Shown: positions 22,950 to 52,654 of the stretch, piece by piece
How the letters are laid out: every line of letters starts with the position of its first letter
Position numbering within the stretch: position 1 is the stretch's first letter
IMG/VR virus record: IMGVR_UViG_3300044949_002606
Coordinates: 1 to 57,930 of that record
Origin: a virus
Strand: one strand, 5' to 3'
Length of the DNA stretch: 57,930 bases
The notes under the pieces: model-generated
The model's input: only the letters and a program-made list of their open reading frames with translations
Database searches by the model: none
Told to the model about the DNA's origin: nothing
Program-made: the position numbers and the translations under genes

Positions 22950-23792
22950 TTAGAAGCCCGACTCCTGAGCGACCTCTTCGATTGGCGCCTGGTCCTCGTA
23001 GCGGACGTTGACGGCGCCCTTGGCGAGGTTGGCGTGGAAGACCTTGGCCGCGGCGTAGACCTCGTTGCGCGTCACTTGCCCGGCGAGCTCGAACTTGACG
23101 CCAAACCACGTGCCCTTGTCGTTGCTCTCCGGGACGGTGGTGACGCGGACGCAGTTGGCGAACGTGGGCGGCGTGAACATCTGCCCCGCGCCGTTCTTGA
23201 GCTTCACCGCGGCGAGTGCCGACATGAGCATCTTGGACTTCTTGATCTGGGTGGAGGTGAGCGACAGCAGCGCCTCGGTCCAGCCGCCCGTAGCTTCGTC
23301 CAGGATCAGCACGTAGTGGTTGCGCGTGTCGTTGAACCGGTCGCTCTTCTCGGGGTTGACGGAGCCGTCGGGCTCAGGCGCGTAGAGCCGCCCATTCAAC
23401 TCGACGATCTGGCCCTTGGCGCGGGCGTCGGCCACCGCCTCGGGCGTGGACGCGCCCTTGTAGCCGCCGCCGTTGGAGCGGGCGCCCCAGCGCAGGAACT
23501 CACGGCGATAGGCGCACGGCACGATCAGCACGCCGTCCTTGCCCGGGAACATGCGCCCGGTGACGTTCTCGAACAGCATGCCGGAGCGCGCACCTTCGAT
23601 GGCGGAGCCGGAGGCTTCGTCGACTTGCGGCGAACCCTTCTGCAGCACGCTCAGGAACGGGATCGCGAACGAATCCTGCCCCGCACCTTCCATGCCCTGG
23701 CCGGCGTCTGCGGCAAAGTCCATCGGCGGCAGCGCCAGCGCGGTGGAGGTCTCTTGCGCCACGGCGACCGCGGCAGTGTTTTTCTTGCTCAT
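22950..23792 (-). CDS. Conserved phage protein, possible single-strand DNA-binding protein
   Basis: A 280-residue protein. Its first third has GQGMEGAGQDSFAIPFLSVL with QKGSPQVD, then GVLIVPCAYRREFLRWG with GGGYKG. This pattern recurs in a conserved phage family encoded near polymerase and helicase genes. The rest is beta-strand rich (RNHYVLILDEATGGWTEALL, NCVRVTTVPESNDKGTWFGV). A role in coating single-stranded DNA would suit the location in the replication operon but is an inference; I see no diagnostic OB-fold motif. The start is ATG 23792. Confidence 0.65.
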   Translation of the reverse strand: MSKKNTAAVAVAQETSTALALPPMDFAADAGQGMEGAGQDSFAIPFLSVLQKGSPQVDEASGSAIEGARSGMLFENVTGRMFPGKDGVLIVPCAYRREFLRWGARSNGGGYKGASTPEAVADARAKGQIVELNGRLYAPEPDGSVNPEKSDRFNDTRNHYVLILDEATGGWTEALLSLTSTQIKKSKMLMSALAAVKLKNGAGQMFTPPTFANCVRVTTVPESNDKGTWFGVKFELAGQVTRNEVYAAAKVFHANLAKGAVNVRYEDQAPIEEVAQESGF

Positions 23793-23857
23793 GATCAGGA
23801 TCTCACTTTCTTGCGTTGCGTGGGGCACAGAACCGCCGCCCCACAGAGCGGTTTGCG

Positions 23858-24367
23858 TTAGCGCTTGGGCGCCGTGATCTTGACGCGCTGGAACGGATGC
23901 ACACCGAACACGTCGAACGGAATCGCGGTGCCCGCGGCCATCTGTTCCTTGATGAAGGACTTGAGCGTGCTGGGGTGCACGCGCTCGATGAGGTTGGGGT
24001 GCTTGCCTTGTTCGGCGCATGCGTTGGCAAAGTCTTCCGCCTCGCCGTGCTCGCCGCGGCCGAAGGAAACGACCACCTCCGTCTTGATCAAGCCGCCGAA
24101 CCCGCGGGCCACCAGCCAGCTGTGCGCGGCGGCGCGGCGCTCTTCGGTGATGGCGCAGGTGACGTCAGGCTGCACCTCCAATGTCTCTCCGGTGTTGAGC
24201 ACGAACTTGCTCAGCCCAAGCTCCTGCATCAGGTCGGGCAGGTCTTCCTGCTCCAGGCGCTGCACGTCAGCTTTGGCCGTGGCGAGTTCAGACTCCAGCC
24301 GCTCCACGATCTTGCGCGCAGAAAGCAACGTCTCTGCCATCTGCACCGCACGCTTCAAGTCGCTCAT
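23858..24367 (-). CDS. Conserved phage protein with N-terminal coiled coil
   Basis: A 169-residue protein. The first 60 residues form a likely coiled coil (MAETLLSARKIVERLESELA, LPDLMQELG). Then comes a compact domain with LNTGETLEVQPDVTC, RAAAHSWLVARGFGGLIKTE and HPSTLKSFIKEQ. I recognise the second part as a recurrent phage protein of unknown function, often next to replication genes. The start at ATG 24367 overlaps the upstream stop by four bases (ATGA), so it is translationally coupled. Confidence 0.7.
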   Translation of the reverse strand: MSDLKRAVQMAETLLSARKIVERLESELATAKADVQRLEQEDLPDLMQELGLSKFVLNTGETLEVQPDVTCAITEERRAAAHSWLVARGFGGLIKTEVVVSFGRGEHGEAEDFANACAEQGKHPNLIERVHPSTLKSFIKEQMAAGTAIPFDVFGVHPFQRVKITAPKR

Positions 24368-24734: not shown

Positions 24735-26213
24735 TTATCCTTGCGTCGCCGCGACGCGGTCGCCCAGCACGAGTGCGGCGGTACGCTTCTTGCGGCGCAA
24801 ATTCTTGGTGATCTGTTCGTCGATCGTGTTCTCGGCGGCGATGTCGATGTACACGACGTTCTTCTTCGTGCCGATGCGGTGAGCGCGGTCTTCACTCTGC
24901 AGCCGCGTCTCGAGGTTGAAGTCGTTGCTGAAGTAAAACACCGTCTCCGCCGCGGTGAGCGTGAGTCCGATACCGCCGGACTGGGGCTGACCCACGAAGA
25001 CGCGCACATCACCGTTCTGAAACTGATCGACCGCAGCTTCACGGTTGTCGCGGCTCACCCCGCCGTGATACTGCACACACGGGATGCCCGCATCGGTGAG
25101 CGCATCCGAGATCGCGTCCAGCTCCTCGCGGAACCGCGCCCACACGATGAACTTGCCTTCCACGTCCTCGATCGCGTCGAGCAGCGTCTTGAGCCGTGGG
25201 TTGTCCGCGGAGATGTAGCGCACGCCCATCGGGGTGTTCACGTACCCGCTCGTGATCTGCTGCAACTTGATCAGCGCGGCCAACTCGCTGACGGGCAGCT
25301 CGGTGTTGTCGCCGAGCTCGATGCGGAGCTCGTCTTGCATCTTGTCGTAGGCGCGTTGTTGCTGTGCGTCGAGCTCGAACGTGATGGTCTTGTAGATCTT
25401 GTCGGGCAGGTCCAGGCAGTCTTTCTTCAACACGCGGAACGAATTCGGCTCGAGCAGTCGCTGCAGCTTGTCGAGGTTGCGCCACCGCGGCGAGCCGTCA
25501 GGGTTGCGGGCGATCACTTGCGCGTACGCCGCCTTGGGGTTGCGGCTGACCATGTTCTGGATCAGCGGATGCGTGTTGGGCAGCACGTCCGCGTACTCGG
25601 CCACGAACGCCCGGTAGCTCGTGGTGCCGAGCAAGCCACTTTCCAAGAACTCCATCTGCGCGAAGATGTCCACCGGCGAGTTCGTCACCGGGGTGCCGGA
25701 CGCGATGCGCGCGCCGACCGCCATGCGCCTGAGCCGCATGAGCGCCTTGGTGCGCGCGGCGTCCGGGTTCTTGATGCGGGAGCTCTCGTCCAGGATGATC
25801 AGCGCCTTGCCCGAGAGCAAGAACCGCTCGGCGCAGGCGCACCCCTTCTTGGTCACCAGCGCGTCGATGTTCATGGCCAGCACGCGCAATGGCGGCGGCA
25901 CGCCGGGCGGGCGCAGTTTAAACAGCTCTTCGAGCGCCCGCATGTGCCGCGCCCCGGCGCCCGAGCGCCACGCACGCGCGACGATGGTGCCTTCCATGTG
26001 CGCGGGGATCTCGCGCGTGACCCAGTTCAGGTGCACGCCGTTGGGCGCCACGACGAGCACGGAGTCGATGGAGCCCTTGGCGTACAGCCGCTCGGCGTCC
26101 GCGAGCAACGTCCAGGTCTTGCCTGTGCCTTGTTCCATGAACAGCGCATAGGTGCGGCGCCCGACCATGCGTTGGACGGCTTGCAGCTGGTGTTGCATGC
26201 CCTGCGTTTTCAT
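24735..26213 (-). CDS. SNF2-family DNA helicase/translocase
   Basis: A 492-residue superfamily 2 ATPase that moves along double-stranded DNA. Motif I is EQGTGKT (about residues 27-33), motif II is IILDESSRI (about 127-135), motif III is ASGTPVTN. The C-terminal lobe has QYHGGVSRDNREAAV, SGGIGLTLTAAE and SEDRAHRIGT (motifs IV-VI). ATG 26213 overlaps the stop of the upstream nuclease gene by four bases. Phages often pair this helicase with a VRR nuclease. It may clear protein from DNA or drive recombination during replication; that is inferred from the operon. Confidence 0.92.
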   Translation of the reverse strand: MKTQGMQHQLQAVQRMVGRRTYALFMEQGTGKTWTLLADAERLYAKGSIDSVLVVAPNGVHLNWVTREIPAHMEGTIVARAWRSGAGARHMRALEELFKLRPPGVPPPLRVLAMNIDALVTKKGCACAERFLLSGKALIILDESSRIKNPDAARTKALMRLRRMAVGARIASGTPVTNSPVDIFAQMEFLESGLLGTTSYRAFVAEYADVLPNTHPLIQNMVSRNPKAAYAQVIARNPDGSPRWRNLDKLQRLLEPNSFRVLKKDCLDLPDKIYKTITFELDAQQQRAYDKMQDELRIELGDNTELPVSELAALIKLQQITSGYVNTPMGVRYISADNPRLKTLLDAIEDVEGKFIVWARFREELDAISDALTDAGIPCVQYHGGVSRDNREAAVDQFQNGDVRVFVGQPQSGGIGLTLTAAETVFYFSNDFNLETRLQSEDRAHRIGTKKNVVYIDIAAENTIDEQITKNLRRKKRTAALVLGDRVAATQG

Positions 26214-26632
26214 CTTCGTTCTCCGAGTTGGATCAGCATGTCCACGAGCTGTTCGGCTCCGATGCACATCGCGGCGGCGCGGAACTGAGCTGTGTTGTAT
26301 TCGTTGACGTGGTCCGCGGTCGCGCCGTTGAATGTGAACACCTCGTCCGCCACCCCGACGACAATGAGCGACTGGCCGCCCCAATTGCGCCAGTTCAGGT
26401 GCCAGTTCTTCTGCACTCGGCTCAGCCCGCGGTCGCCCAGCACTCGGGTGGCGGGCCGGGCGGGCCAACCGTCAATTTGCTTGAGCTCGATGGGCATGAA
26501 GCTCCCGCCCACCAACGTGTCGAGGTCCGGGCGGCCGGCTCCGACGAGATTTTCGATGCGCTCGGTGTGCAGCCGCCCAGCGGCAACCTTGCGCAACCTA
26601 TCCCACAAGCGCTGTTCCGGTCTGCGACTCAC
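26210..26632 (-). CDS. VRR-type PD-(D/E)xK nuclease
   Basis: A 140-residue protein. The core motif is GAGRPDLDTL, then PIELKQ after a strand, followed by LSRVQKNWHLNWRNWGGQ. This is the VRR-NUC arrangement, where the Asp of RPD, the Glu and the Lys of IELKQ form the metal site. Start is GTG 26632, with CAGGAG seven bases before it. It overlaps the polymerase end by 35 bases and the helicase start by four. Family members act as stand-alone nucleases on structured DNA. Confidence 0.85.
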   Translation of the reverse strand: MSRRPEQRLWDRLRKVAAGRLHTERIENLVGAGRPDLDTLVGGSFMPIELKQIDGWPARPATRVLGDRGLSRVQKNWHLNWRNWGGQSLIVVGVADEVFTFNGATADHVNEYNTAQFRAAAMCIGAEQLVDMLIQLGERR

Positions 26633-29417
26633 TGAGCGACTCCTGACGGTTGAGGACCTTGATGCGTTCGACCTTGATCATGCCGAAGCCCGGGATCTTG
26701 CGCCCACGCACCAGCAGCACGTCCTCCTCCGCCAGCAGCCTCTCCATCGCCACGCGCCCGAGCGGCTCGTACTTGAAGCGGTCGATGCGGCAGATGATCG
26801 GGATGCCGGTGTCGTCCTTGAGGAAGAGATCGGTGAAGAGCGTCTGCCCCGTGAGCCGGCGCCCGTCGCGCCGCGCGACGCGCACGGTCTCGTTCTCGTC
26901 GCGCAACTCCTTCTTCGCGATCTTGCCGATGAACAGCACGTCGCCCTGGTCGGGCAAGCGGTCCGCCGTGCACACCACCGATCCCGCCCGGCACCCGTGC
27001 GCCACGGGGTCCGCATAGAGCGCGGCGTACGTGCGCCCAATGGGGTAGAGGTCGGAGAACTTGACCGCCGCCGCCGCGATGCGGGCGCGGAGCTTGTTGT
27101 CCGTGCGCCCGAGCCGGCGCGCTTCCACCGCGGCCACAGCCTTCGCGGGGCCGAAACCCACCAAGTTCATGAACCCGCCCACGAGCTTGCCGTCCTGCAC
27201 GGACCAGTTGATGTCGGAGAGCTCGGGGTCGAACGCGACGTAGCCCACCCCTTCCGCCACCATCTCGCGCAGGATCTCGGTGGCTTGGTCGTCGTCCTTG
27301 GCGGAGCGCAAGCACGCCGCCGCGTATTCGAGCGGGTAGTACGCCTTCATCCACGCGCACCAGTAGCTGATCACCGCGTACGCGCACGTGTGACTCTTGT
27401 TCATGCCCCACGCGCCGAAGTTGCAGATCTCGTTCCAGATGTCGTGCGCGGTGCGGTCGTCGATGCCGTCCTGCGCGGCACCGGCGATGAACTTGGCGCC
27501 TTGCTGGTCGAAGTATTCCTTGCCCTTGCGGCCCGACATCGCCTTGCGGATCACGGTGGTTTCGTCCCAGGAGAACTTGCCGATGTCGCGCACGATGCGC
27601 ATCACCTGTTCCTGATACAGCACCACCCCATACGTGTCCGCCAACAACTCCTCCAGCGCGGGGTGCGTGTACGTGACGGGCTCGGAGCCGGCCTTGCGGG
27701 CGATGTACTTGCCCGTGGCGCCGCCGCCCAGCGGCCCCGGGCGGGCCAGCGCGGTGAGGTGGTCCACGGTGCGGAAACTGTCCACGTGCACCTGCGCGGA
27801 GATGGTGCGCTGGCTCTGGCCTTCGAATTGGAAGACGCCCGTGTACTTGCGCTGGTTGAAGACGTCGAGCACCTGCGGGTCGTCGAGCTTCAGCCCATAC
27901 AACGTCTCCGCCGTCACCACGCCGCTGTCCTCGATCACGCCCAGCGTCCGCAGCCCGAGCGCGTCTATCTTGAGCAGGTTCAGGTACTCGCTGTCGGGCT
28001 TGTCGATCTGCGCCACGCCGTCGGCGCCCACGGTGCAGTATTCGTCCACGGGCACGTTGCAGACGATGACGCCCGCGGCGTGCACGCCGGTGTGCCACGC
28101 GTGGTTCTCCACCTCGCTCATCACCGCCGCCTTGGGCCACCGGCTCATGAACGCGCGCCCGATCTCGGTGTTGCTGAGCGTGTCCTCCAACCCCTTGCCG
28201 TAGCGGCTGTCGCCCGACGAATACTCGATCAGCACGTTCAGCAGCTGGAACCGCTCCTTGTCGGGGATGCCGAACCGCTTGCACACCTCGGCCATCACGG
28301 AGCGCGGCTTCAGCGTGTTCACGTTGCCGATGCGCGCCACGCAGCTGCGCCCGTACTTGTTGGCCAAGTACTCGAAGCACTCGTCGCGCTTCACGTCGCT
28401 GAAGTCGATGTCGATGTCGGGCAAGTCCTTGCGCGTCAGGTCAATGAACCGCTCGAACAACAACCCGTGCGGGATGGGGTCGACTTCGGTGATGCCGAGC
28501 AGGTAGCACAACAACGACCCCGCCGACGAGCCGCGCCCGGGGCCGACGAGCATGCGCTGCTTGGCCCAAGCGATCAGGTCGGCCACGACGATGAAGTAGC
28601 TTTCGAACGCTTTGGCTTCGATGGCGGAGAGCTCGCGCTGCAACCGATCCTCGTACTCCCGCGGCCACGCCGGCAAGTGCCCGAGCGCCAACCTCCGCTG
28701 CCGCCCCTCCTCGGCCAGCGCGCGCAAGTCGCCGGGCACACGAATGATCGGCGCGGTGCGCAACGTCCCGGCGCATCGCTCGGCAACCTCGTGAGTGTTG
28801 CGCACAGCCTGCGCCCACTCCGCGTCGCTCAACCCGCGGATCGCGCGGCGCAACTCCTGCTCGCTCAACAAGTGCTGCGGCGTCGCCGCCTCGCGCACCC
28901 CGATCGCCAGCGCCGCAGTCGCGTCCGCCGCGGCGGGGAAGCTGTTGGAGGAGGTGAGCACGAGCGGCTTGCCGGTGCGGCGGTGCAGCATGATCGCCGC
29001 GCGCTGCGCCACGAGCGACGCCGGGTTGAGGTCGACGTAATCGAACAACTCCGGGTCCGTCAACGCCTCCCCCGCGAACCGCAACACGCCAGAGCTCTCG
29101 CGCAACAAACGCACGGCGTCCGCGTCTGGGCGCCGCAGCGCCGTGCTGAACTTGTAGAACCCGCGCACGTCCTCAGCGAGCGCCCACGCCTGTGGCTTGC
29201 GCCCGTCGGGTAGGGGTACGGTGAGCTCGGTGCCGAATAAAGGCTTAAATCCTGCGTTTGCTGCAGCCTTTGCCCACCGGACATGCCCCCACGTGCCGCC
29301 GTCCACGATCCCCGCGGCCGGGGCTTCCAAAGCTCGCACCGCGGCCGCCGCCCGCGGCACCGGCCCGAACGCCTGCCGGAAGCTGAACTCCGTGCGGCAA
29401 CGCAGCTGCGGCAACAT
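26598..29417 (-). CDS. dnaE: C-family replicative DNA polymerase (DnaE-type alpha subunit)
   Basis: A 939-residue polymerase, shorter than cellular DnaE (about 1160). Signature motifs are GPGRGSSAGSLL (about 293-304), PDIDIDF (about 333-339, two catalytic Asp) and LLKIDALGLRTL (third Asp near 485). A PHP domain lies at the N terminus, but its metal-binding His residues look lost: LRCRTEFS stands where LHxHSEYS is usual, and IVDGGTWG where a DHG is usual. Proofreading is therefore likely supplied by the DnaQ-type exonuclease encoded just upstream, whose stop overlaps this ATG (TGATG). Probably the phage's own replicase. Confidence 0.95.
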   Translation of the reverse strand: MLPQLRCRTEFSFRQAFGPVPRAAAAVRALEAPAAGIVDGGTWGHVRWAKAAANAGFKPLFGTELTVPLPDGRKPQAWALAEDVRGFYKFSTALRRPDADAVRLLRESSGVLRFAGEALTDPELFDYVDLNPASLVAQRAAIMLHRRTGKPLVLTSSNSFPAAADATAALAIGVREAATPQHLLSEQELRRAIRGLSDAEWAQAVRNTHEVAERCAGTLRTAPIIRVPGDLRALAEEGRQRRLALGHLPAWPREYEDRLQRELSAIEAKAFESYFIVVADLIAWAKQRMLVGPGRGSSAGSLLCYLLGITEVDPIPHGLLFERFIDLTRKDLPDIDIDFSDVKRDECFEYLANKYGRSCVARIGNVNTLKPRSVMAEVCKRFGIPDKERFQLLNVLIEYSSGDSRYGKGLEDTLSNTEIGRAFMSRWPKAAVMSEVENHAWHTGVHAAGVIVCNVPVDEYCTVGADGVAQIDKPDSEYLNLLKIDALGLRTLGVIEDSGVVTAETLYGLKLDDPQVLDVFNQRKYTGVFQFEGQSQRTISAQVHVDSFRTVDHLTALARPGPLGGGATGKYIARKAGSEPVTYTHPALEELLADTYGVVLYQEQVMRIVRDIGKFSWDETTVIRKAMSGRKGKEYFDQQGAKFIAGAAQDGIDDRTAHDIWNEICNFGAWGMNKSHTCAYAVISYWCAWMKAYYPLEYAAACLRSAKDDDQATEILREMVAEGVGYVAFDPELSDINWSVQDGKLVGGFMNLVGFGPAKAVAAVEARRLGRTDNKLRARIAAAAVKFSDLYPIGRTYAALYADPVAHGCRAGSVVCTADRLPDQGDVLFIGKIAKKELRDENETVRVARRDGRRLTGQTLFTDLFLKDDTGIPIICRIDRFKYEPLGRVAMERLLAEEDVLLVRGRKIPGFGMIKVERIKVLNRQESLSESQTGTALVG

Positions 29418-29992
29418 CACACTTGCTCCTCTTCAACAGTTTCCAGCGCCAGCTCGTGCAGCCCCAGCGCCACCACGACTTCCACCAGCGCCAGCACGTC
29501 GTCGAGCGCCCGGTGCGTCTGCGGCAGTGGTCGGCCCAGCGTGTGTTCGTACAACTCGGTGAGCTTCGGGTTGCGGCCCCAGGCGCCGCGGTGCAGCCCG
29601 ACGGTGCAGAACTCTGCGGCGGGCCAGGGGAACTCCACCGCACCGCACCGCGCCAAGTCGTAGTGCAGCAGCGCCTTGTCGAACGGCAAGTTGTGCGCGA
29701 ACACGGCGCGCGCTTGCCCGAAGATGTGCCGCAGCTGAGGCAAGCACTCTCCGAACGGCGGCGCCCCGACCAAGTCGGCGTTGGTGATGCCGGTGATCTT
29801 GGTGATCTCGGCGGACACCTCCTCGCCGGGGTGCACGAGCTGGCTGAGCGTTTCGACCACCTGCCCGCGACGGTCGACGAGCGCCGCGCCGAGCTCAATG
29901 ATCTTGGGTTGCTTGGCGAGCGGGGCGTCCGGGTGCAGCGTGAGGCCCGTGGTCTCCGTGTCGAAAACAACGATGAGCGGCTCGGCGTTCAC
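29417..29992 (-). CDS. dnaQ: DnaQ-like 3'-5' exonuclease (proofreading subunit)
   Basis: A 191-residue DEDDh exonuclease. Exo I is VVFDTETTGL (D11, E13), Exo II is AHNLPFDKALL (D105), Exo III is HRALDDV (H160, D165). These four acidic residues and the His bind two metals and remove mismatched bases. The gene directly precedes the polymerase with overlapping stop and start codons, a strong sign of a paired polymerase and proofreader. No clamp-binding or theta-like tail is obvious. It begins at ATG 29992, overlapping the stop of the gene upstream by four bases. Confidence 0.95.
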   Translation of the reverse strand: MNAEPLIVVFDTETTGLTLHPDAPLAKQPKIIELGAALVDRRGQVVETLSQLVHPGEEVSAEITKITGITNADLVGAPPFGECLPQLRHIFGQARAVFAHNLPFDKALLHYDLARCGAVEFPWPAAEFCTVGLHRGAWGRNPKLTELYEHTLGRPLPQTHRALDDVLALVEVVVALGLHELALETVEEEQV

Positions 29993-30471
29993 TGGTCGGC
30001 CTTTTCGCGCCGGACAATGAACTTCAAATCAACCCCGAGCACGTCGCGCGTGTCGAAGATCACGTACTGGTACTTGCGACCGTTGCCGACCAGGAACGGG
30101 TTGGTGTGGCTCTCCGTGAACACCTCCTGGGCCACGCGGATGTCCAGGTCAGCGAACTTGCGGCGGAAGGCGTCCAGCTCCTCCGCGGTGCAATGCATGC
30201 CGAGGTGCGACACGCTCGGCACCCGCGCGGCCATCCAGTTGCGCCCCGCCGTGTAGTGCAGCACCTCGAGCTCGAGCGGCTTGCCTTCCGGGCGAGTGTT
30301 CTCGTAGTTGAACGCGAGGTCGGCGACGTTCTTGCCGCCGTGACCCCACACCGTGCCCGCGGCCACGACCGTATCCGTGGTCCAGGCCTTGAGCCCCAGC
30401 TCGGCGAGCAGCGCCCGGGCGCGCTCGGGGTTGGGTGGGCAGAGGGCGATTTGTTCGATGAAGAATTGCAT
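29989..30471 (-). CDS. VOC/glyoxalase-fold protein of unknown substrate
   Basis: A 160-residue protein with the beta-alpha-beta-beta-beta layout of the vicinal oxygen chelate fold. It has MQFFIEQIALCPPNPERARA at the N terminus. The second half reads PLELEVLHYTAGRNWM, VSHLGMHCTAEELDAF and a final YQYVIFDTRDVLGVDLKFI. Possible metal ligands are E in LELEVLHY, H in VSHLGMHC and the D/E residues of the last strand. It sits between an SDR gene and the polymerase exonuclease. VOC proteins include glyoxalases, dioxygenases and resistance proteins, so no reaction is assigned. Confidence 0.65.
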   Translation of the reverse strand: MQFFIEQIALCPPNPERARALLAELGLKAWTTDTVVAAGTVWGHGGKNVADLAFNYENTRPEGKPLELEVLHYTAGRNWMAARVPSVSHLGMHCTAEELDAFRRKFADLDIRVAQEVFTESHTNPFLVGNGRKYQYVIFDTRDVLGVDLKFIVRREKADQ

Positions 30472-30475
30472 GGCG

Positions 30476-31156
30476 TCAGGCTCCGTAGGGAAGGATGCAC
30501 CCGGTGAGGAATTTGTGCCGGGGCTTGGTTGAGAGAAGGTGGGCGACGAAGTCAGCGAGCTGTGCGGGGTCGGTCTCCTCGCCCGCGAGCAGCGCGTTGA
30601 GCTGGTACTGCGCGGCGTACTCCCGGGTCCAGCCGCGCAGCGCGACGACTTGGTCCTCGATGTCCCGCGACATCTCGGTGCCGCGCAGCTTGTTGGGGCT
30701 GATGCCGAAGACGGTGATGCCGTGCTTCTTGGTGAGCTCGCGCGCCAGCTGCAACGTCATGATGTGCGCCGCGCCCTTGCTGGCGTTGTAGGCGAGAGAG
30801 GTCGTCATCGGCATGTGCGCCGCGTTGCTCACGATGTTGAGGATGGTGCCGCGGGACTTGATCAACTCGGGCAGCGCCCACTGGGCCATGCGGTAGATGC
30901 CCTTTGCGTTCACGTCCATCACCTCGTCCCACACGTCCTGCTCCAGGTCCTCCAGCCACGCGGTCTTGTTGATCCCGGCGCAGTTCACCAGGATGTCCAG
31001 CTTCTCCGGCGGCGGCCCGTAAGTCGTGGCCGGGAAGCGCACGTCGTGCCCCTTCTTGCGGTCGAAGTCGAACACCTCGTGCCCCGCGATGCGCAACTCG
31101 TACGCGATGGCCGCGCCCAACCCGGCGCCCGACCCTGTCACCAATATCTTGCTCAC
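30476..31156 (-). CDS. Short-chain dehydrogenase/reductase (SDR)
   Basis: A 226-residue Rossmann-fold oxidoreductase. The cofactor loop is TGSGAGLG (residues 7-14), followed by VNCAGIN (57-63). The catalytic tetrad is complete: N83, S110 (NIVSNA), Y123 and K127 (YNASK). Around residue 31 the FDFDRKKG strand end could favour either NAD or NADP. Start is GTG 31156 with AGGAG upstream and a four-base overlap with the DUF6378 gene. Phage SDRs are uncommon; the substrate could be a sugar or a nucleotide derivative, which is speculation. Confidence 0.88.
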   Translation of the reverse strand: MSKILVTGSGAGLGAAIAYELRIAGHEVFDFDRKKGHDVRFPATTYGPPPEKLDILVNCAGINKTAWLEDLEQDVWDEVMDVNAKGIYRMAQWALPELIKSRGTILNIVSNAAHMPMTTSLAYNASKGAAHIMTLQLARELTKKHGITVFGISPNKLRGTEMSRDIEDQVVALRGWTREYAAQYQLNALLAGEETDPAQLADFVAHLLSTKPRHKFLTGCILPYGA

Positions 31157-31446
31157 TGTGAGTTCTCCTGCTTGTTGAGATTGATGGCTTCACACATGGC
31201 GCAGTACACACCGGCGTCGTGGATGGAGTCCACGTGCTGCAAGCCGCTGATCGCGTACCGGCTCAGCTTCACGAGGATCAGCTCGAACAGATGGAATTGG
31301 TCCGAGTGCAACAGCTCTGGCGGCGCCCCTTTGGGGAACAAGACCGCCATCATCCGTCCGACCATCTTGAAGTTGTCGCCGTACACCGCGTTGCGCTCAC
31401 GGAACGTGGCGGCCATGCCGTCGAGGATGTCTGCCGCGGTGTTCAT
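31153..31446 (-). CDS. DUF6378 domain protein
   Basis: A 97-residue protein. It reads ILDGMAATFRERNAVYGDNF, then LHSDQFHLFELILVKLSRYA and HVDSIHDAGVYCAMCEAI. I recognise this as DUF6378, a small helical phage family often encoded with thymidylate synthase and other nucleotide genes. A relation to MazG-like nucleotide pyrophosphatases is possible from the acidic helix pattern but is not shown. ATG 31446 overlaps the upstream stop (ATGA), which decides the start over an earlier in-frame opening. Confidence 0.78.
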   Translation of the reverse strand: MNTAADILDGMAATFRERNAVYGDNFKMVGRMMAVLFPKGAPPELLHSDQFHLFELILVKLSRYAISGLQHVDSIHDAGVYCAMCEAINLNKQENSQ

Positions 31447-31934
31447 GCTGCGCTCGCTGTGGTTGTGGTGGGCGGGGTGTACGCGCACACGTTGTGCACG
31501 GCGCGCACCTCAGAGTGGATGCCGTGCTTCAGGTACATCTCCACCACATCGGGCCGGTCGTCGTACGCCGCAGTGATTGAACCCCAGCGCACGCCGTAGA
31601 CTTCCGGCAGCCAGTGCAACATGTGGCGCTTCAGCTCGAGCGACGAGCGATGGTCGTTGTTGTTGCGCATGATGAGGTGCTGGAACGGCACCTTGCGCCG
31701 CCGCAGCCACTCCTCGGTGATGGGCCGGTACTGCACGGGGCGCGCGGTGAACACGAGGATGAGGCTGCCCTTGGAGTCCTGCAGAATTTCCTCGTTGCGC
31801 AGCTCGTCGAAGCCGCTCAGCGAGTGGTAGTCGTGGTAGCGCTCCATGGGGTTGGCCTTCTGCCAGTTTATCCGCGGAATGCGCCAAGCGTCATCGGCGA
31901 TGCAGTTGTCGAGGTCGACTATGACGTGGTTCAT
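31443..31934 (-). CDS. HAD-superfamily phosphatase
   Basis: A 163-residue protein. The HAD nucleophile motif is VDLDNCIADD (D7 and D9), motif II is LVFTARPVQYRP, and the last acidic motif is AAYDDRPDVVEMY. The layout matches phage 5'-nucleotidase or polynucleotide 3'-phosphatase (PNK C-terminal) domains. Its place next to ThyX and endonuclease V suggests nucleotide salvage or DNA-end repair. ATG 31934 overlaps the upstream stop by four bases, and the leader TCCTTTCTAAG element (31945) is also present just upstream. Confidence 0.82.
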   Translation of the reverse strand: MNHVIVDLDNCIADDAWRIPRINWQKANPMERYHDYHSLSGFDELRNEEILQDSKGSLILVFTARPVQYRPITEEWLRRRKVPFQHLIMRNNNDHRSSLELKRHMLHWLPEVYGVRWGSITAAYDDRPDVVEMYLKHGIHSEVRAVHNVCAYTPPTTTTASAA

Positions 31935-32296
31935 GATGCAGTTGTCCTTTCTAAGATGCGTTGGCGGTTGATGGCGAGGGCGGCGGCGGTGGGCTCCCAG
32001 TCTTGGAACCAATCCGTGCCGACCTCGACCATCGGCGGGTAGGCGTAGCTGGGCTTGTACCCGCGGCGCAGCATCTCCTCCTTGAGCCGGAAGAACCGCC
32101 GTGAGCAGTAGCCCAGCCGCGAGTAGAAGAACTTAACGTGCCCAGCGCCCAACGTATACTGCGTAGGCGCCACGAGCGCGGCGCGCTTGGGGTAAGCCCT
32201 GTCCGCCAGCGCGAAAACGCGCGGCAGCTCGCGGTACTCGGCCAGCAGGTGCTGCCGCGAGAGCTCTTCGGGAGGGACGCAGTTGATGCGGGTCAT
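31931..32296 (-). CDS. denV: Pyrimidine dimer DNA glycosylase (T4 endonuclease V family)
   Basis: A 121-residue protein aligning closely with T4 endonuclease V: MTRIN at the start, QHLLAEYRELPRVF (residues 15-28) and YTLGAGHVKFFY. The N-terminal Thr that forms the Schiff base (residue 2) and the catalytic Glu (E23) are both conserved. The last 15-20 residues of the T4 enzyme, which help contact DNA, are missing. The enzyme excises UV-induced cyclobutane pyrimidine dimers. ATG 32296 overlaps the ThyX stop by four bases. Confidence 0.93.
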   Translation of the reverse strand: MTRINCVPPEELSRQHLLAEYRELPRVFALADRAYPKRAALVAPTQYTLGAGHVKFFYSRLGYCSRRFFRLKEEMLRRGYKPSYAYPPMVEVGTDWFQDWEPTAAALAINRQRILERTTAS

Positions 32297-33018
32297 GATT
32301 GACGGTCCTTGCGCATGGCGTCGACGATCTTGAGCAACTTGCCTTTCTTGAGCAGGTCGCCGCCGTACTCGGCTTCGGCGAAAGATTCGATCTCCGCAAA
32401 GTGGTCGCGCCCCTGCCTGAACAGGAACTTCGCCGCCCAAGGGTGCACGGCGAGCACGGCGTCGGCCATGGCTTGCGCCACGCGCTGGTACTCGCCTTGC
32501 GTGCGGCCGCCGGTGCGGCTCGCCACCAGCTCCGACAAGGCGCGGAGGTTGAACTTGGCGCAGATGTTGGTGGCGATGTTGGTGGGGAGAATGCCGCGGG
32601 CGTCCTCGGGCGGGAGCCCGAGCTGGATGAGCCGGCGGTAGGCGTTGCGGATCTGGTGGTTGACCAACCCCACGACGCCCGCCGCGTCAGCATTGTTCGC
32701 CACCCGGTCGGGCATCACGTAGTCGTACTCGCCCATGTCCAGCACGCGCATCGTCTGCTGAGCGTAGCTGGCGTTGCGGCTCCGCACGAACTGGTGGGTG
32801 AAGGCGCGGCTGACGCCTTCGATCATGAACACGTAGTCGACGAACTCCCACGAGCTGGGGATGGTGGCGGCCATGTATTCGAGCTCGGCGAGCTTCTTTT
32901 CCTCGGGCCAGCTCATGATCTCGTCCATCAAGCCCGGCGACATGTTCAGTCGCGTGGACTTGGTGAAGATGAGCAGCTCCGCCGCGTGAGGCGTGTGGCT
33001 GATGAGAGAGACCTTCAT
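32293..33018 (-). CDS. thyX: FAD-dependent thymidylate synthase, ThyX
   Basis: A 241-residue enzyme that converts dUMP to dTMP using FAD, methylenetetrahydrofolate and NADPH. The family motif reads HQFVRSRNASYAQQTMR (about residues 76-92), a variant of the usual RHRxxSxNExSxRY. The C-terminal block GILPTNIATNICAKFNLRAL and EYQRVAQAM is also typical. Start is ATG 33018 with AAGGAAAC upstream; an adjacent in-frame GTG at 33021 is less likely. It is the first gene of a metabolic operon and has its own -10 sequence at 33051-33056. Confidence 0.9.
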   Translation of the reverse strand: MKVSLISHTPHAAELLIFTKSTRLNMSPGLMDEIMSWPEEKKLAELEYMAATIPSSWEFVDYVFMIEGVSRAFTHQFVRSRNASYAQQTMRVLDMGEYDYVMPDRVANNADAAGVVGLVNHQIRNAYRRLIQLGLPPEDARGILPTNIATNICAKFNLRALSELVASRTGGRTQGEYQRVAQAMADAVLAVHPWAAKFLFRQGRDHFAEIESFAEAEYGGDLLKKGKLLKIVDAMRKDRQS

Positions 33019-33050
33019 CACGTTTCCTTTCTGAGTTGTGGATGGTGAGA

Positions 33051-33056
33051 ATTATA
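33051..33056 (-). promoter_or_regulatory. Candidate -10 box upstream of thyX
   Basis: A perfect TATAAT on the minus strand lies 33 bp before the thyX start in the only gap (57 bp) of this operon. No good -35 is seen at 16-19 bp (ATAGCT at 17 bp). It may need an activator, or be a weak internal promoter. The leader also carries the CAACTCAGAAAGGA ribosome element. Confidence 0.5.
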
Positions 33057-33075
33057 CCCCGCGTTGCGTGGCGAG

Positions 33076-33390
33076 CTATGCGCGCATCGCTGCTCGGATT
33101 TGCCGCACGCGGGCGGAGCTGATGGAGTGTTCCGCGGCGATCACCGCAGCGGGGCGAGTGTCCCGAGCGATCGCCACGTCACGCTTGTGCAGCGCGATGC
33201 GCCGCTCGATCTTGCGCAGTGCGGAGGTCATCTCGCGCCCATTGGCCAGCTGCGAGGGGTGCACCTCCCACGTGCTGAAGTCGTGCCCATTCACGCACCG
33301 CCGCAGCCGCAAGCACATGCGCACTTCTGGAGAGGCTTCCACCAGCAGCACGGAGCTACGCTCCACGCCGCAAACAGGACAGTTCATCAT
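33076..33390 (-). CDS. Zinc-ribbon plus helix-turn-helix protein, possible regulator
   Basis: A 104-residue protein. It has MNCPVCGVERSSVLLVEA and RRCVNGHDFSTWEVH, an arrangement like the NrdR zinc ribbon. The C-terminal half is basic and helical, ending with HSISSARVRQIRAAMRA, which looks like the recognition helix of a sigma region 4 or similar helix-turn-helix. A transcriptional regulator is a reasonable inference. ATG 33390 overlaps the upstream stop (ATGA); a second ATG at 33387 is possible. Confidence 0.65.
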   Translation of the reverse strand: MMNCPVCGVERSSVLLVEASPEVRMCLRLRRCVNGHDFSTWEVHPSQLANGREMTSALRKIERRIALHKRDVAIARDTRPAAVIAAEHSISSARVRQIRAAMRA

Positions 33391-34298
33391 GCTGCGGCCC
33401 TCCGCAAGTCGTAGGCGCTGCTCGACTTCAACAGCCGCTTCACCTGCACGATGTCGTCGACCACATCGTCGAGCAGGATGTTGCGCCAAGTGGCGAACCG
33501 CCCCAGCGAGAACACGTTGTGCTCATGCGTGAGCCGGAACAAGAGCTGCTTGCGCAGCGCGTCGTCGATCGGCGCGATCTTGCCGAAGGACTGCTGGACT
33601 TGCTCCTTGTTCACCCAGCAGTCCTTGCGCACTCCGAAGGCGTGCTCCACCGCCCCGATGTCCTCCAGCTCCAGCGGCCCGACCGACTCCACGATGAGCG
33701 TCGAGCCGGTGATGCTGGCGCGGTAGACGCTCAGGTGCGGCTCGGGGAAGTACACCGTCTGGAACACATCCGCCCCGGGCACCGCCCAGCGCGACACCGT
33801 GATCGGCGCCCGCGGGAAGTCGCACTCCGGCTTCATGCCCAGCGCCGCCAGCGTCGCGGGCAGCGGTGCCGTGCTCACGACCGCGCCGCGCATGCCGGCG
33901 AAGTCTGCCGGGGTGTTCCAGTGGATGCGCGGCCCGACGGCCTCGATCATCTGTTCGTACAACGTCTCCGGCGCAATGAACCGCTCGACGGTGTCGAGGT
34001 TCCAGACGCTGCGGTCGCCCAGCAGCCGATCGGGGCCGAGCACCTTCTGCGCGTAGGTGTTGGCGTGCCGAATGTTGGGCGCGCAGAACTCGCCCGCGGC
34101 CCAGAGCCCCTTGCGCACCGTGACGCGGCGGAACTCGATGCCCGTCAGCCGCGCGACGGCGTCCGTGCGGAACCGCAGCAGCGCCCGGTGCGCCTGCCGC
34201 GGGCCGGGGCCGGCCTCAAGGACCGTCGCGGTGGGCCACGCGTGCGCCGCGATCAGCCCCGCGAGCCCGGCGCCGACGATGGTGGGTGTGATGGTCAT
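33387..34298 (-). CDS. FAD-dependent oxidoreductase of amine oxidase/mutase-like fold
   Basis: A 303-residue flavoprotein. The dinucleotide-binding motif is IVGAGLAGLIAA (GxGxxG at 9-14), followed by a strand TVLEAG. Near the C terminus FSLGRFATWRNILLDDVVDD resembles the second FAD contact of UDP-galactopyranose mutase-like enzymes. Middle residues (TAPLPATLAALGM, YRASITGSTLIVES) fit the substrate domain of this superfamily. It is shorter than the usual 370-400 residues. ATG 34298 overlaps the upstream stop. Substrate unknown. Confidence 0.78.
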   Translation of the reverse strand: MTITPTIVGAGLAGLIAAHAWPTATVLEAGPGPRQAHRALLRFRTDAVARLTGIEFRRVTVRKGLWAAGEFCAPNIRHANTYAQKVLGPDRLLGDRSVWNLDTVERFIAPETLYEQMIEAVGPRIHWNTPADFAGMRGAVVSTAPLPATLAALGMKPECDFPRAPITVSRWAVPGADVFQTVYFPEPHLSVYRASITGSTLIVESVGPLELEDIGAVEHAFGVRKDCWVNKEQVQQSFGKIAPIDDALRKQLLFRLTHEHNVFSLGRFATWRNILLDDVVDDIVQVKRLLKSSSAYDLRRAAA

Positions 34299-34843
34299 TG
34301 CTGCGTCTCCTCTGTGACGGGGGTCAGGTGGTTCTTCTCGATCAGCTTCTGCAGGTAGCCGCGCACGGGCTGAGCGAAGTGCTTTTCCAGCGCCTCGATG
34401 GTGCAGCAGTTGTCGGGGGCCGCCTGCACGTAGGCCAGCACCGCGGCACGCACGGAGCCTGCCTGCGGCCGAGACGTGCCGGCGAACGTGGCGCGGACCC
34501 GGGAGAACTTGACACGGGGCTGCGCCGGCAGCGCCGTGCGCGGGGCGATGGGCTGCTGCGCGTGCACAGCGGCGTGCAGCGCATGGCTCATCGACCCCGG
34601 CACGTACGGGTTGTGCCCGAGCTCGGCGACGGTCTTGGCGCGGGGGCGGGTGTTGGGCGGGACGCCGACGTGCCCGACCGCGTCCTCGGCGGCCATGATG
34701 GCGTTTTGTACCTGCGTGCGGGCGGCGTCGACGTTCGTGAACCCGGGGTGGTCGGGCTCACCGCGCAGGGCGCGGAAGGTGTGGTTCAGGTCCTCGATTG
34801 ACGCGGTGAGCGTGGCGGACTTTTCGCGGAGAATGGTGGGCAT
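34295..34843 (-). CDS. Early phage protein of unknown function
   Basis: A 182-residue protein. It has a helical N-terminal half (ILREKSATLTASIEDLN, ARTQVQNAIMAAEDAVGHVG), a Pro/Ala-rich centre, and a C-terminal region (RAAVLAYVQAAPDNCCTIEA then KHFAQPVRGYLQKLIEKNHL) that looks like a small winged-helix domain. The start at ATG 34843 is preceded by the leader AACTCAGAAAGGACAACACATC. It overlaps the next gene by four bases. The winged-helix reading suggests DNA binding but is tentative. Confidence 0.65.
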   Translation of the reverse strand: MPTILREKSATLTASIEDLNHTFRALRGEPDHPGFTNVDAARTQVQNAIMAAEDAVGHVGVPPNTRPRAKTVAELGHNPYVPGSMSHALHAAVHAQQPIAPRTALPAQPRVKFSRVRATFAGTSRPQAGSVRAAVLAYVQAAPDNCCTIEALEKHFAQPVRGYLQKLIEKNHLTPVTEETQQ

Positions 34844-42966: not shown

Positions 42967-44550
42967 ATGAACGCGCCGCTCAGCCCCGCCGTGCTGCTGG
43001 ACATGGTCCAGCGCGAGCGCGACCGTCGCGCGGCGCAGCGCGGCTTGTACGAGTTCGTGAAGCAAGCGTGGAGCACCGTCGAGCCCGGCGTGAAGTTCAT
43101 TGCCTCGTGGCACATCGAGGCGATCTGTGAACACCTCGAGGCGATCACTCACGGCCAGCTGCGCAAGCTGCTCATCAACATTCCACCGCGGCACAGCAAG
43201 TCCACCATCGTCAGCGTGATGTGGCCGATGTGGGAGTGGCTGCACAACCCGGCGGAAAAGTACTTGTGCGCCAGCTACTCCGGCACGCTCAGTATCCGCG
43301 ACAACTTGAAGGCGCGGCGGCTGGTGCAGTCGCCTTGGTACCAGGAGCGGTGGGGCACGCAGTTCGAGCTGGCCGGCGACCAGAACGCCAAGCAGCGGTT
43401 CGAGAACGACAAGACGGGCTACCGCCTGGCCACCAGCGTGGGCGGTACGGCCACGGGCGAGGGCGGCTCAAGGCTCATCCTCGACGACCCACACAGCGCC
43501 CAGGAAGCCAACTCCGACGCCATGCGCGAGTCGGCGCTGGAGTGGTTCGACGTTGTGTGGTCCACGCGGTTGAATGACCCCAAGCGCGACGCGATGGTCA
43601 CCGTCATGCAGCGGCTCCACGAGCGCGATGTGTCCGGGCACATCCTCGAGGACATTGGCGGGTGGGAACACATCTGCATCCCTGCCGAGTGGGACGGGCG
43701 CGCTCGCAAGACCGCGCTCGGCGCGTACGACCCGCGCACCAAGCGCGGCGAGCTGATCTGTCCGGAGCGGTTCGGCGAGAAGGAAGTCACCGAGCTGAAG
43801 CAGCTGCTCGGCACATATGGCGCCGCGGGCCAGCTGCAGCAGGAACCTTCGCCCGCCGAGGGCGGCATCCTGAAGACCAAGCACTTCCGGCTGTGGCCCG
43901 CCGAAAAGCCGTTGCCCCAGTTCGAGTACGTGCTGCAGAGCTACGACACCGCGTTCAGCGAGAAGACCTCCAACGACCCCACGGGCTGCGAGGTGTGGGG
44001 CATGTTCACTTACGAGAACGCACGGCACGCGATGCTGCTCGACGCGTGGGACGAGCGGCTCACCTACCCCGAGCTGCGGCAGCGCGTCATCCGCGACTGG
44101 AACACCGAGTACGGCGGCACGAGCGGCGCCCAGCGTGGGCAGGTGACGCGCTCTGTTCGCCCCTCGCGCATCCTCGTGGAGGCGAAGGCCAGCGGCCAGT
44201 CGCTGTTGCAGGACCTGCGGCTCGCACGTGTGCCGGCCGTGGGGTACAACCCTGGGACAGCCGACAAGGTGAGCCGGGCGCATCAAGCCGCGCCCACGCT
44301 CGAGCTGGGCATCTTGTGGGTGCCTGAGTCGGCCAAGAACCCTGGCCAACCCGTGAGCTGGGCTGCGCCGTTCATGCGCCAGCTGGAGAAGTTCCCCGTC
44401 GCCGAGCACGATGAGTACGTGGACTGCTTCACGCAGGCCGTGATCTTCCTGAAGAACGACGGATGGTTCGAGCTGCCCCAGGCCTCAGACCGCGACGAAC
44501 CGCGCCGCCGCGCACCCAACGCCGAGAGGGGCAACCCCTATGCCGCATAA
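42967..44550 (+). CDS. terL: Terminase large subunit
   Basis: A 527-residue packaging ATPase-nuclease. The ATPase has a Walker A-like NIPPRHSKST (71-80), Walker B RLILDDPH (about 169-176), and an adenine-binding start with FVKQAW. The RNase H-like nuclease has QSYDTAFSEKTSNDP, a middle strand RILVEAKASGQSLLQDL and the last Asp in DEYVDCFTQAVIFL. These are the hallmarks of phage large terminases. It pumps DNA into the prohead through the portal encoded at 48308. Start is ATG 42967. Confidence 0.95.
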   Translation: MNAPLSPAVLLDMVQRERDRRAAQRGLYEFVKQAWSTVEPGVKFIASWHIEAICEHLEAITHGQLRKLLINIPPRHSKSTIVSVMWPMWEWLHNPAEKYLCASYSGTLSIRDNLKARRLVQSPWYQERWGTQFELAGDQNAKQRFENDKTGYRLATSVGGTATGEGGSRLILDDPHSAQEANSDAMRESALEWFDVVWSTRLNDPKRDAMVTVMQRLHERDVSGHILEDIGGWEHICIPAEWDGRARKTALGAYDPRTKRGELICPERFGEKEVTELKQLLGTYGAAGQLQQEPSPAEGGILKTKHFRLWPAEKPLPQFEYVLQSYDTAFSEKTSNDPTGCEVWGMFTYENARHAMLLDAWDERLTYPELRQRVIRDWNTEYGGTSGAQRGQVTRSVRPSRILVEAKASGQSLLQDLRLARVPAVGYNPGTADKVSRAHQAAPTLELGILWVPESAKNPGQPVSWAAPFMRQLEKFPVAEHDEYVDCFTQAVIFLKNDGWFELPQASDRDEPRRRAPNAERGNPYAA

Positions 44551-44791
44551 GGTCGACAAGGCAGCGATGGGCTGCAACAAGCCGCGGCGCACGCCGGGCC
44601 ACCCCGCCAAGAGCCACGTCGTGAAGGCGTGCTCGGGCGGCACTGAGAAGGTGATCCGGTTCGGCCAGCAAGGCGTCAAGGGTTCACCCGAGGGCTCGGC
44701 CCGCAACGATGCGTTCAAGGCCCGGCACGCCAAGAACATCGCCAAGGGCAAGATGTCCGCCGCGTACTGGGCAGACAAGGTGAAGTGGTGA
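44540..44791 (+). CDS. DUF6321-like small phage protein
   Basis: An 83-residue protein with HPAKSHVVKACSGGTEKVIR, FGQQGVKG and ARNDAFKARHAKNIAKGKMS followed by AAYWADKVKW. I recognise this highly conserved pattern as DUF6321, found between terminase and portal genes of many phages. It is basic and probably binds DNA or the packaging complex. It starts inside the end of the terminase gene (11 bp overlap). Confidence 0.8.
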   Translation: MPHKVDKAAMGCNKPRRTPGHPAKSHVVKACSGGTEKVIRFGQQGVKGSPEGSARNDAFKARHAKNIAKGKMSAAYWADKVKW

Positions 44792-45324
44792 TCGACGTGC
44801 ACGGGTTGAACGCAATGCGCGCGGCGTACGCTGATGGGGGCGCGGTGCGCAACCCCGCGGCCCGCGGCCTGCCCAACCCGTCGCTGCTCAACTTGCAGCT
44901 GTACGCGCAGACGGTGGCGGAGGGGATGTACCCCGACGATGTGTTGCGCAGGGATGCCGCCCGGCACATGCTGGCCGCCGCGTTGGCGGCGCAGCGTTTT
45001 GGTCCTGGCACGGCCGAGGCGCTGGGCAAGGCCTACGAGTTCAAGGAGTCGCCTTTGCGCACCGCGGGGCATTGGATGGGGCTCAGCGCGCCGCGCGAAG
45101 ACTACCCAGTCGACACGCACAACAACGCGCTCGGCGCGCAGCTCGGTGCGCAATCGCGTTCGATGGACGATCTGCTGAGCGCGATTCAGCGCGCTGTGGA
45201 CCGCGGCACCGCGGGCATCGCAGAAGGGCAGGTGTCGTTGCGTCCGGACCCGGACACCCGCTACGTGAAAGGCAAGGCCCGCGGCGGTCTCGCCCAAGTG
45301 AAGGAGCGCAGCTGCAATGGCTGA
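44788..45324 (+). CDS. Phage protein with DUF6973-like helical motif
   Basis: A 178-residue protein starting at GTG 44788, overlapping the previous stop. It includes ADGGAVRNPAARGLPNPSL, then AARHMLAAALAAQRFGPG with EALGKAYEF, and YPVDTHNNALGAQLG. The RH..A and DxHNN residues fit a family I remember as DUF6973. The end has KARGGLAQVKE, one of the ARGG motifs. It is a candidate virion or packaging accessory protein; function unknown. Confidence 0.6.
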   Translation: MIDVHGLNAMRAAYADGGAVRNPAARGLPNPSLLNLQLYAQTVAEGMYPDDVLRRDAARHMLAAALAAQRFGPGTAEALGKAYEFKESPLRTAGHWMGLSAPREDYPVDTHNNALGAQLGAQSRSMDDLLSAIQRAVDRGTAGIAEGQVSLRPDPDTRYVKGKARGGLAQVKERSCNG

Positions 45325-47635: not shown

Positions 47636-47636
47636 A

Positions 47637-48254
47637 ATGGCAGGACCGTTGTTTGCTGTGGGGCGGGCGCTGCTGGGCAGCCAGCTCACCCAGCCGATTA
47701 TGAATGAGATGGCGATTCGCGGGTTGGGTAGCGGAACGCTGAGCCCGGAGTTGGCGCGGTTGCTGTACAGCAACCGCACTCTGGGCGAGCAGCTCGCCAG
47801 CAGCGTTGAGCCGCTGGGGCGGCTGCTGGGGTTCCTGCCCGAGGAGCGACCCAACTACAACCTGCCCGACGACTACAGCGTGGGTCCGCAGGGCGAGATT
47901 TACAACTTGGCCGGTGACCGCATGGTTACGGGCGAAGGCGTGACGGGGTTCCAGCCCGTAGCGCAATACGGGGAGTACGGGTTTCAAGAGCCTTTGCCGC
48001 CCCGTCCTGAAGGCTATCCGTCCGACGCGCCGTGGCCGCCGCCTGGGGCGGGGGGCGGCTTTATGCCTGCTGCGGAGGGGCCGCTCAGCCTACAGCAACC
48101 GCCCACCTGGGGAAGGGGTGCCGATGGCGGGGGCTTTAGCGGTGCGCGGGGTGATGACGGCGGCGGGCACGGCAGCTACGGTGGTGATTACTACGTCGAT
48201 GAGCTTGAGCGCCTTGCCGCTCGCTACGCCATTCAACCGCCTCCCGGAGGTTGA
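47637..48254 (+). CDS. Phage protein with Gly/Pro-rich C-terminal half
   Basis: A 205-residue protein. The N-terminal 70 residues contain GPLFAVGRALLGSQLTQPIM and ARLLYSNRTLGEQLASS, helical and moderately hydrophobic. The rest is Pro-, Gly- and Tyr-rich (NYNLPDDYSVGPQGEIYN, GADGGGFSGARGDDGGG). It ends DELERLAARYAIQPPPGG, a motif shared with other late proteins. It starts one base after the previous stop region and precedes the portal. Probably internal to the virion; inferred. Confidence 0.65.
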   Translation: MAGPLFAVGRALLGSQLTQPIMNEMAIRGLGSGTLSPELARLLYSNRTLGEQLASSVEPLGRLLGFLPEERPNYNLPDDYSVGPQGEIYNLAGDRMVTGEGVTGFQPVAQYGEYGFQEPLPPRPEGYPSDAPWPPPGAGGGFMPAAEGPLSLQQPPTWGRGADGGGFSGARGDDGGGHGSYGGDYYVDELERLAARYAIQPPPGG

Positions 48255-48307
48255 CCCCCAACCCCTTGCCCAACAAAACGCGCAGCAGCGCTGAGGACTT
48301 TTGACTC

Positions 48308-50842: not shown

Positions 50843-50861
50843 CCGAAAGGAACCCTGAACC

Positions 50862-50999
50862 ATGGCTGACAAACCCACCCCCGGCACCGTGCCCATGACT
50901 GGCGCGCTCGTCAAGCAGAAGCACCGCATGGCCGCAGGCAGCAAGGAAAACGGCCAAACGCTGCCCGCCGCCCCGGCAATGCCCAAGACCCCGGCGTGA
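50862..50999 (+). CDS. 45-residue basic protein
   Basis: A small gene with a good ribosome site (GAAAGGA) 11 bases before ATG 50862, ending TGA 50997-50999, overlapping the next start (GTGA). The sequence reads VPMTGALVKQKHRMAAGS and ends with many Pro, Ala and Lys residues. Similar short proteins lie between portal and scaffold genes in related phages. No function is recognised. Confidence 0.6.
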   Translation: MADKPTPGTVPMTGALVKQKHRMAAGSKENGQTLPAAPAMPKTPA

Positions 51000-51584: not shown

Positions 51585-51601
51585 AGGAGATGTGACCCAT
51601 C

Positions 51602-52570: not shown

Positions 52571-52593
52571 ATTGCACCCGGCACACAAAGTGT

Positions 52594-52622
52594 TTGCCTC
52601 GCGCACAATTCTGCCCTATAAT
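52594..52622 (+). promoter_or_regulatory. Sigma70-like late promoter P3 for the capsid genes
   Basis: TTGCCT at 52594-52599 and TATAAT at 52617-52622 have a 17 bp spacer and are followed by TCACCC, as in P1. It lies in an 84 bp gap between scaffold and the gene at 52655. Separate transcription may give extra capsid message. Confidence 0.88.
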
Positions 52623-52631
52623 TCACCCACC

Positions 52632-52649: not shown

Positions 52650-52654
52650 CACAC

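Follow-up and report, generated by a model that had tools for sequence, protein, structure and literature searches.

Genes of the cassette

The window analysed here is the entire IMG/VR record IMGVR_UViG_3300044949_002606, a viral DNA of 57,930 bases for which no near-identical DNA was found among phage records. A first-pass annotation had grouped three of its enzymes, a vicinal oxygen chelate (VOC)-fold protein, a short-chain dehydrogenase/reductase (SDR) and a flavin adenine dinucleotide (FAD) enzyme, with ThyX, DUF6378 and a HAD phosphatase in a possible uncharacterised nucleotide or small-molecule pathway. All six genes lie in one compact minus-strand operon and form a cassette that recurs in many other viruses, consisting of a fixed core (FAD, ThyX, HAD/DUF6378) and an optional two-gene extension (SDR-VOC). 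The three enzymes therefore belong together as a set, as had been proposed, and not as equals.

Transcription runs from a 182-aa protein without assigned function through the FAD enzyme, a Zn-ribbon protein, ThyX, a DenV-type glycosylase, a PNKP-type HAD phosphatase, the DUF6378 protein, SDR, VOC, DnaQ, DnaE and a small gene to a helicase. The positions and identities given earlier for VOC, SDR and FAD were correct and the other named genes are present; the glycosylase and Zn-ribbon genes had been overlooked. Coupling by four-base overlaps was found at 5 of the 7 gene junctions from VOC to FAD (ATGA/GTGA type), but not between SDR and VOC (a 4-nt gap) or between ThyX and the Zn-ribbon gene (a gap of ~57 nt). 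Overlaps of 4 nt are also present at the VOC/DnaQ junction and between FAD and its upstream gene.

The first core gene (33387..34298, minus strand, as are all genes below) encodes an FAD enzyme of 303 aa with a GxGLAGL dinucleotide motif. It matches PHROG 4828, a family of unknown function (E=6e-92), and nothing in Pfam or NCBIfam. Its AlphaFold model (pLDDT 87) was placed by Foldseek nearest to UDP-galactopyranose mutase (UGM), followed by nicotine/amine oxidases and renalase, with 3hdq as the best PDB hit (E=1.5e-9, TM 0.55, 15% identity). With large root-mean-square deviations, the model supports the fold class only and the match is not UGM-specific. Compared with UGM, the predicted fold is alike, whereas the enzyme is shorter, has no sequence-family match to it, and did not retrieve UGM among PDB sequence hits; the proposed membership of the galactopyranose mutase group thus holds for the nearest fold and not for the sequence family. 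With the patterns used, a scan of GTDB contigs (84,980 bacterial and archaeal species genomes) gave 25 pattern matches and no confirmed cellular relative.

The second core gene (32293..33018) encodes a ThyX-like flavin-dependent thymidylate synthase (Pfam Thy1, 8e-32) that scores as a ThyX equivalog in NCBIfam (TIGR02170, 94 bits against a cut-off of 87.9). It meets the family profile and yet departs from the family signature, as the canonical RHRxxSxNxxSxR is altered to RSRNASYAQQTMR. The signature His is replaced by T, S or N in 146 of 147 family members and the Asn is found in 0/147, while the three Arg and the QxE region are kept. Two candidate group-specific features were rejected: S88 of the motif, as S, T and A are mixed across the family, and the altered RxR as a peculiarity of FAD-linked ThyX, as Streptomyces phage Yara has RSR. 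In Yara (locus L168, 2758-3858), a ThyX whose motif is altered likewise, to RSRNAAFHQQSQRA, lies beside DnaE and no FAD gene is present in the region searched; this locus may represent a related or simpler system.

The third core component consists of two genes. One encodes a PNKP-type HAD phosphatase (31443..31934; Pfam HAD_PNKP 1e-7, PHROG 415 1.5e-20) with DLD, T, K and DD motifs, and the other a DUF6378 protein (31153..31446), which matches the C-terminal part of PHROG 4889 (5e-26) and, below the cut-off, Pfam DUF6378 (6.9e-4). A relationship of DUF6378 to MazG found no support against accessory MazG profiles (hhalign probability 0.2%), and DUF6378 is therefore not called a dNTPase.

The SDR (30476..31156; Pfam adh_short, E=1e-33) carries TGxxxGxG and the previously noted N-S-Y-K tetrad (N83-S110-Y123-K127), which place it in the SDR superfamily. 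Its partner, the VOC-fold protein (29989..30471), matches Pfam Glyoxalase_4 narrowly (27.7 bits, cut-off 27) and no PHROG or NCBIfam family, and sequence searches of the PDB with it and with the FAD enzyme gave nothing useful. The VOC model (pLDDT 91) has the VOC fold, with methylmalonyl-CoA epimerase as the nearest structure (3gm5, E=5e-8). Q7, E67/E69 and H89 are invariant. Although the predicted fold resembles the epimerase, the usual last metal-ligand Glu seems to be an invariant Lys or Asp (K150 or D148), this fourth metal-site position being placed by motif only.

Among the remaining genes, the 182-aa protein (34295..34843) is a frequent neighbour of FAD in relatives. The small Zn-ribbon protein (33076..33390) has a weak, below cut-off match to the NrdR Zn-ribbon (2.5e-4) and is a passenger in close relatives (28/168 loci). 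The DenV/T4 endonuclease V-type pyrimidine-dimer glycosylase (31931..32296; Pfam Pyr_excise 2e-13, PHROG 1183 7e-37) begins with MTRIN and contains a YRELPRVF motif, resembling the T4 enzyme in both; its gene occurs in 34/168 loci, as a frequent passenger and not a core member. A different, weakly similar Pyr_excise protein lies near its place in locus L160 (3291-3893) and likewise in other relatives. The fixed downstream neighbours are a DnaQ-type 3'-5' exonuclease (29417..29992; PHROG 192, 9e-41) and the DNA polymerase III alpha subunit, DnaE (26598..29420; PHROG 405, 2e-230).

Recurrence of the core and exchange of its partners

The gene set is not peculiar to the window phage, and named isolates carry its members largely annotated as 'hypothetical proteins'. 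VOC, SDR, HAD/DUF6378, ThyX and FAD occur in the same order in Carpasinavirus (Xanthomonas), Wifcevirus (E. coli) and Myosmarvirus (Serratia, Erwinia), and further in Kylevirus (Pantoea), Plutovirus (Luteibacter) and Aeromonas phage Gekk3-15. At least six named phage genera or isolates therefore carry SDR-VOC, and in two more, Pbunavirus E217 and Burkholderia phage WTB, the core stands alone, with neither SDR nor VOC. In most named relatives DUF6378 is fused to HAD, as judged by alignment. Relatives of the FAD enzyme were found in 359 phage records, mostly PB1-like Lindbergviridae.

Metagenomic profile scans gave 477 FAD and 156 VOC relatives, of which the best 80 of each were retained, and further seeds extended the set. 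Across ~150 distinct related viral loci the conserved order is FAD–ThyX–HAD/DUF6378–[SDR–VOC]–DnaQ–DnaE. ThyX and DUF6378 were present in 118/118 loci having FAD and DnaQ in the first set, and ThyX in all 109 dereplicated loci of this kind. Where VOC loci had more than 6.5 kb upstream, FAD, ThyX, DUF6378 and SDR were all found (73/73). Random co-occurrence in relatives, together with unmodified phage DNA, had been named as an outcome that would speak against a common pathway; because the same order recurs in named phages and in ~150 metagenomic loci, the grouping is non-random and far beyond chance.

The SDR-VOC pair behaves as an all-or-none unit. Among dereplicated loci, 71 have both genes, 39 neither and 3 SDR only, and trees of ThyX+DnaQ show at least 14 switches of this state on branches with support. 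The trees are FastTree topologies, and recombination could inflate the event counts. In independent pairs, SDR and VOC moved together in 13/14 and, on average, 13.6/15 cases (median p=0.0002 and 0.0001, respectively), and never in opposite directions. Two loci, L033 and L034, have flanks of 86-94% identical DNA and differ by the loss of both genes. In loci lacking the pair, the space before DnaQ is often closed up.

In several other loci without SDR-VOC the slot between FAD and DnaQ is occupied by different enzymes. An S-adenosylmethionine (SAM) methyltransferase is present in 11 loci, in one of them after DnaQ and in the others between FAD and DnaQ, with at least eight independent occurrences and never with SDR (0/11; Fisher p=3e-6). 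A NodU/TobZ-type carbamoyltransferase and a radical SAM/SPASM enzyme each occupy the slot in 3 loci without SDR-VOC, and a class II aldolase adjoins a lone SDR there. In L057 and L247, radical SAM and FkbM methyltransferase genes separate SDR from VOC; in L221 the pair lies upstream of FAD and a sulfotransferase takes the usual slot. In L181 the slot encodes a protein resembling the phage beta-glucosyl-HMC alpha-glucosyltransferase family (PHROG 842, E=6e-6). The tailoring enzymes at this one locus are thus combinatorial, comprising SDR-VOC, methyl-, carbamoyl- and sulfotransferases, radical SAM enzymes, aldolase and a glycosyltransferase-like protein.

A protein unmatched in Pfam and PHROGs always accompanies the radical SAM/SPASM gene in the tailoring slot of three related loci (L199 11387-12559, L183 5932-6810, L216 7997-8827) and is a possible partner of it. 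Another protein of ~380 aa and no assigned family, GHKL-type ATPase-like by eye, recurs by the cassette in L220, L231 (5890-7035), L268 and L274.

The core is not tied to one type of phage. In 206 kb Rhizobium phages (Kleczkowskaviridae), FAD, ThyX and a HAD-DUF6378 protein lie near genes for ribonucleotide reductase (RNR) and dUTPase, without DnaQ/DnaE neighbours. The window portal is closest to those of Caulobacter phage RW, Roseobacter CRP-901/902 and Pelagibacter podovirus-type phages, and among the virion proteins there are matches to DNA-ejection and SU10-adaptor families. Profiles detected no cassette gene in the parts searched of RW (50 of 62 kb) or DSL-LC04 (48 of 62 kb). The window phage is a mosaic of a podovirus-like virion and a PB1-like replication operon (DnaE/DnaQ). 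Because the portal and virion are podovirus-type and the searched parts of RW and DSL-LC04 are without the cassette, the replication-plus-modification block is common to unrelated virion types, between which it has been transferred. The virion genes lie at 1-22666 and 42967-54760, with Caulobacter RW, Roseobacter CRP-901 and Pelagibacter HTVC023P podovirus-type phages as their nearest relatives.

Restriction phenotypes and known hypermodification systems

Wifcevirus is insensitive to every tested restriction-modification system but EcoP1_I (PMC11990801), and 18 EcoRI and 3 EcoRV sites were counted in one member, Escherichia phage HermannAdler (Bas98), which has the core and SDR-VOC. DNA of the Pbunavirus JG024 is uncut by ScaI, NdeI and BsaI, and is cut by XbaI and, in earlier work, SacII (PMC10913387). 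DNA of the PB1-like phage P1-14pyo is cut incompletely by EcoRI and HindIII and is cut by Sau3A and AluI (PMC3634792). The cassette was verified in E217, to which JG024 and P1-14pyo are linked by genus. T (or A) is favoured over C or G as the altered base because T occurs in the sites left uncut, whereas a SacII site consists of G and C only. Korf 2019 and the Abidjan collection yielded no digest data on these genera.

Hypermodified thymidines derived from 5-hydroxymethyl-dU (5-hmdU) are found in phages M6, ViI, phiW-14 and SP-15; for their pathways PMC11955845 and PMC11946847 cite Lee et al. 2018 and 2022. Like these pathways, the cassette is a phage gene cluster in which an unchanging initial step would be followed by varying combinations of tailoring enzymes (flavin enzymes, transferases and radical SAM), and it includes a thymidylate synthase-type enzyme; the partial restriction resistance of its carriers may be a further parallel. 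Unlike them, the cassette has a ThyX-like enzyme, a UGM-fold flavoenzyme and the SDR-VOC pair. No ThyA-type dUMP hydroxymethylase was matched among the window genes scanned with PHROGs and Pfam, which did not include all small open reading frames, nor, within the same limits, a 5-hmdU DNA kinase or an amino-acid/aGPT-PPlase-type transferase; the cassette is therefore not filed under the 5-hmdU pathways. The glucosylated and arabinosylated cytosine systems of T4 and RB69 also create a handle on a pyrimidine and then use a transferase, and the protein in L181 resembles a phage DNA glucosyltransferase family. However, no dCMP hydroxymethylase or hydroxylase was found, ThyX is not of the ThyA family, and the restriction data on cassette carriers indicate T or A and not C.

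Proposed pathway and alternatives

With a probability of about 0.7, the cassette is a new variant of a phage DNA hypermodification pathway, likely acting on thymidine, within a replication operon. Thymidine is the likely target because the core holds ThyX and resistance occurs at T-containing and not at all-G/C sites. The core would equip a pyrimidine nucleotide or DNA base with a reactive, hydroxyl-type handle, as most slot transferase types act on hydroxyl groups, and a swappable tailoring step would then complete the modified base. In the window phage, SDR could oxidise the handle to a carbonyl, which the VOC protein, with its epimerase-like fold, could isomerise or add to; relatives would use a methyltransferase, carbamoyltransferase, radical-SAM enzyme or aldolase in place of this step. 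The modified base would protect phage DNA against restriction. The nucleotide-modification pathway first suggested from the window is in this respect well supported by conserved co-occurrence, by the combinatorial tailoring genes and by the restriction phenotypes of relatives, which were taken from papers; DNA as the target, thymidine as the base and each reaction step are what we infer from them.

A more specific version, for which we would give somewhat less than an even chance, is that the handle is made by two flavoenzymes (the motif-altered ThyX and the UGM-fold FAD enzyme) and is not 5-hydroxymethyl-dU, with SDR-VOC, methyl-, carbamoyl-, sulfo- or radical-SAM finishing, in PB1-like therapeutic phages, Wifcevirus, podovirus-like phages and Rhizobium phages. 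If hypermodification is correct, it would explain the resistance of Wifcevirus to nearly all tested restriction systems, the mechanism of which was called unexplained (PMC11990801), and would account for Pbunavirus DNA resisting several restriction enzymes. It would also suggest roles for PHROG 4828 and for a number of 'hypothetical proteins' across hundreds of sequenced phages and provide new DNA-modifying enzymes. Wifcevirus and Pbunavirus are available in collections, and Pbunaviruses are used clinically.

Several observations weigh against hypermodification. EcoP1_I acts on Wifcevirus, and XbaI, Sau3A and AluI cut Pbunavirus DNA, so any modification would be partial or context-dependent. 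The authors of the JG024 study proposed methylation as the cause of resistance (PMC10913387), and an unrelated anti-restriction gene could be its source. The exclusion between the methyltransferase and SDR drops to p ~0.06 upon phylogenetic pairing. UGM-like enzymes, NodU-type carbamoyltransferases, sulfotransferases and FkbM methyltransferases are also found in glycan pathways, and with its score above the equivalog cut-off the window ThyX might simply make dTMP.

This last point also favours a nucleotide-supply module with unmodified DNA, in which dTMP would come from ThyX, HAD/DUF6378 would adjust the dNTP pools, and FAD, SDR and VOC would serve rapid replication by recycling or detoxifying the cofactors flavin, folate and NAD. 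The position of the cassette with DnaQ/DnaE, and near RNR and dUTPase in Rhizobium phages, would suit such a module, but it leaves both the exchange of SDR-VOC for methyl-, carbamoyl- and radical-SAM enzymes and the restriction phenotypes unexplained, and we consider it unlikely. Lower still is the probability of a surface-glycan or nucleotide-sugar pathway that changes the host O-antigen, for example in superinfection exclusion, using the UGM-like FAD enzyme, SDR, the epimerase-like VOC and transferases. The fold nearest to UGM and the Nod-type carbamoyltransferase and sulfotransferase of relatives are in its favour, as is the use of O-antigen or lipopolysaccharide as receptor by Wifcevirus and Pbunavirus (PMC11990801). 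However, no obvious membrane segment is present in the window cassette proteins (highest 19-residue hydropathy 1.4), a glycosyltransferase is absent from most loci, and the core places ThyX and a PNKP-type HAD inside a polymerase operon. The cofactor and cell-wall-sugar options of the first-pass annotation are disfavoured. Vertical inheritance of functionally unrelated polymerase neighbours, which would agree with most named carriers being of one family, Lindbergviridae, is the least probable explanation and largely refuted by the core in unrelated Rhizobium phages and across virion types, the at least 14 joint losses or gains of SDR and VOC, and the relocation of both upstream of FAD in L221.

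Further features were noted around the cassette and its relatives. In the window, the small gene that follows DnaE (26210-26632) is VRR-NUC nuclease-like by eye only, and 3' of the helicase genes, positions 22950-24020 strongly match the Pam3 phage gp34-like family (Pfam PF23977, 3e-73; PHROG 2402). In one relative (L050, 5563-6909), an ADP-ribosyltransferase exoenzyme domain (Pfam, 1e-24) is encoded within the cassette region.

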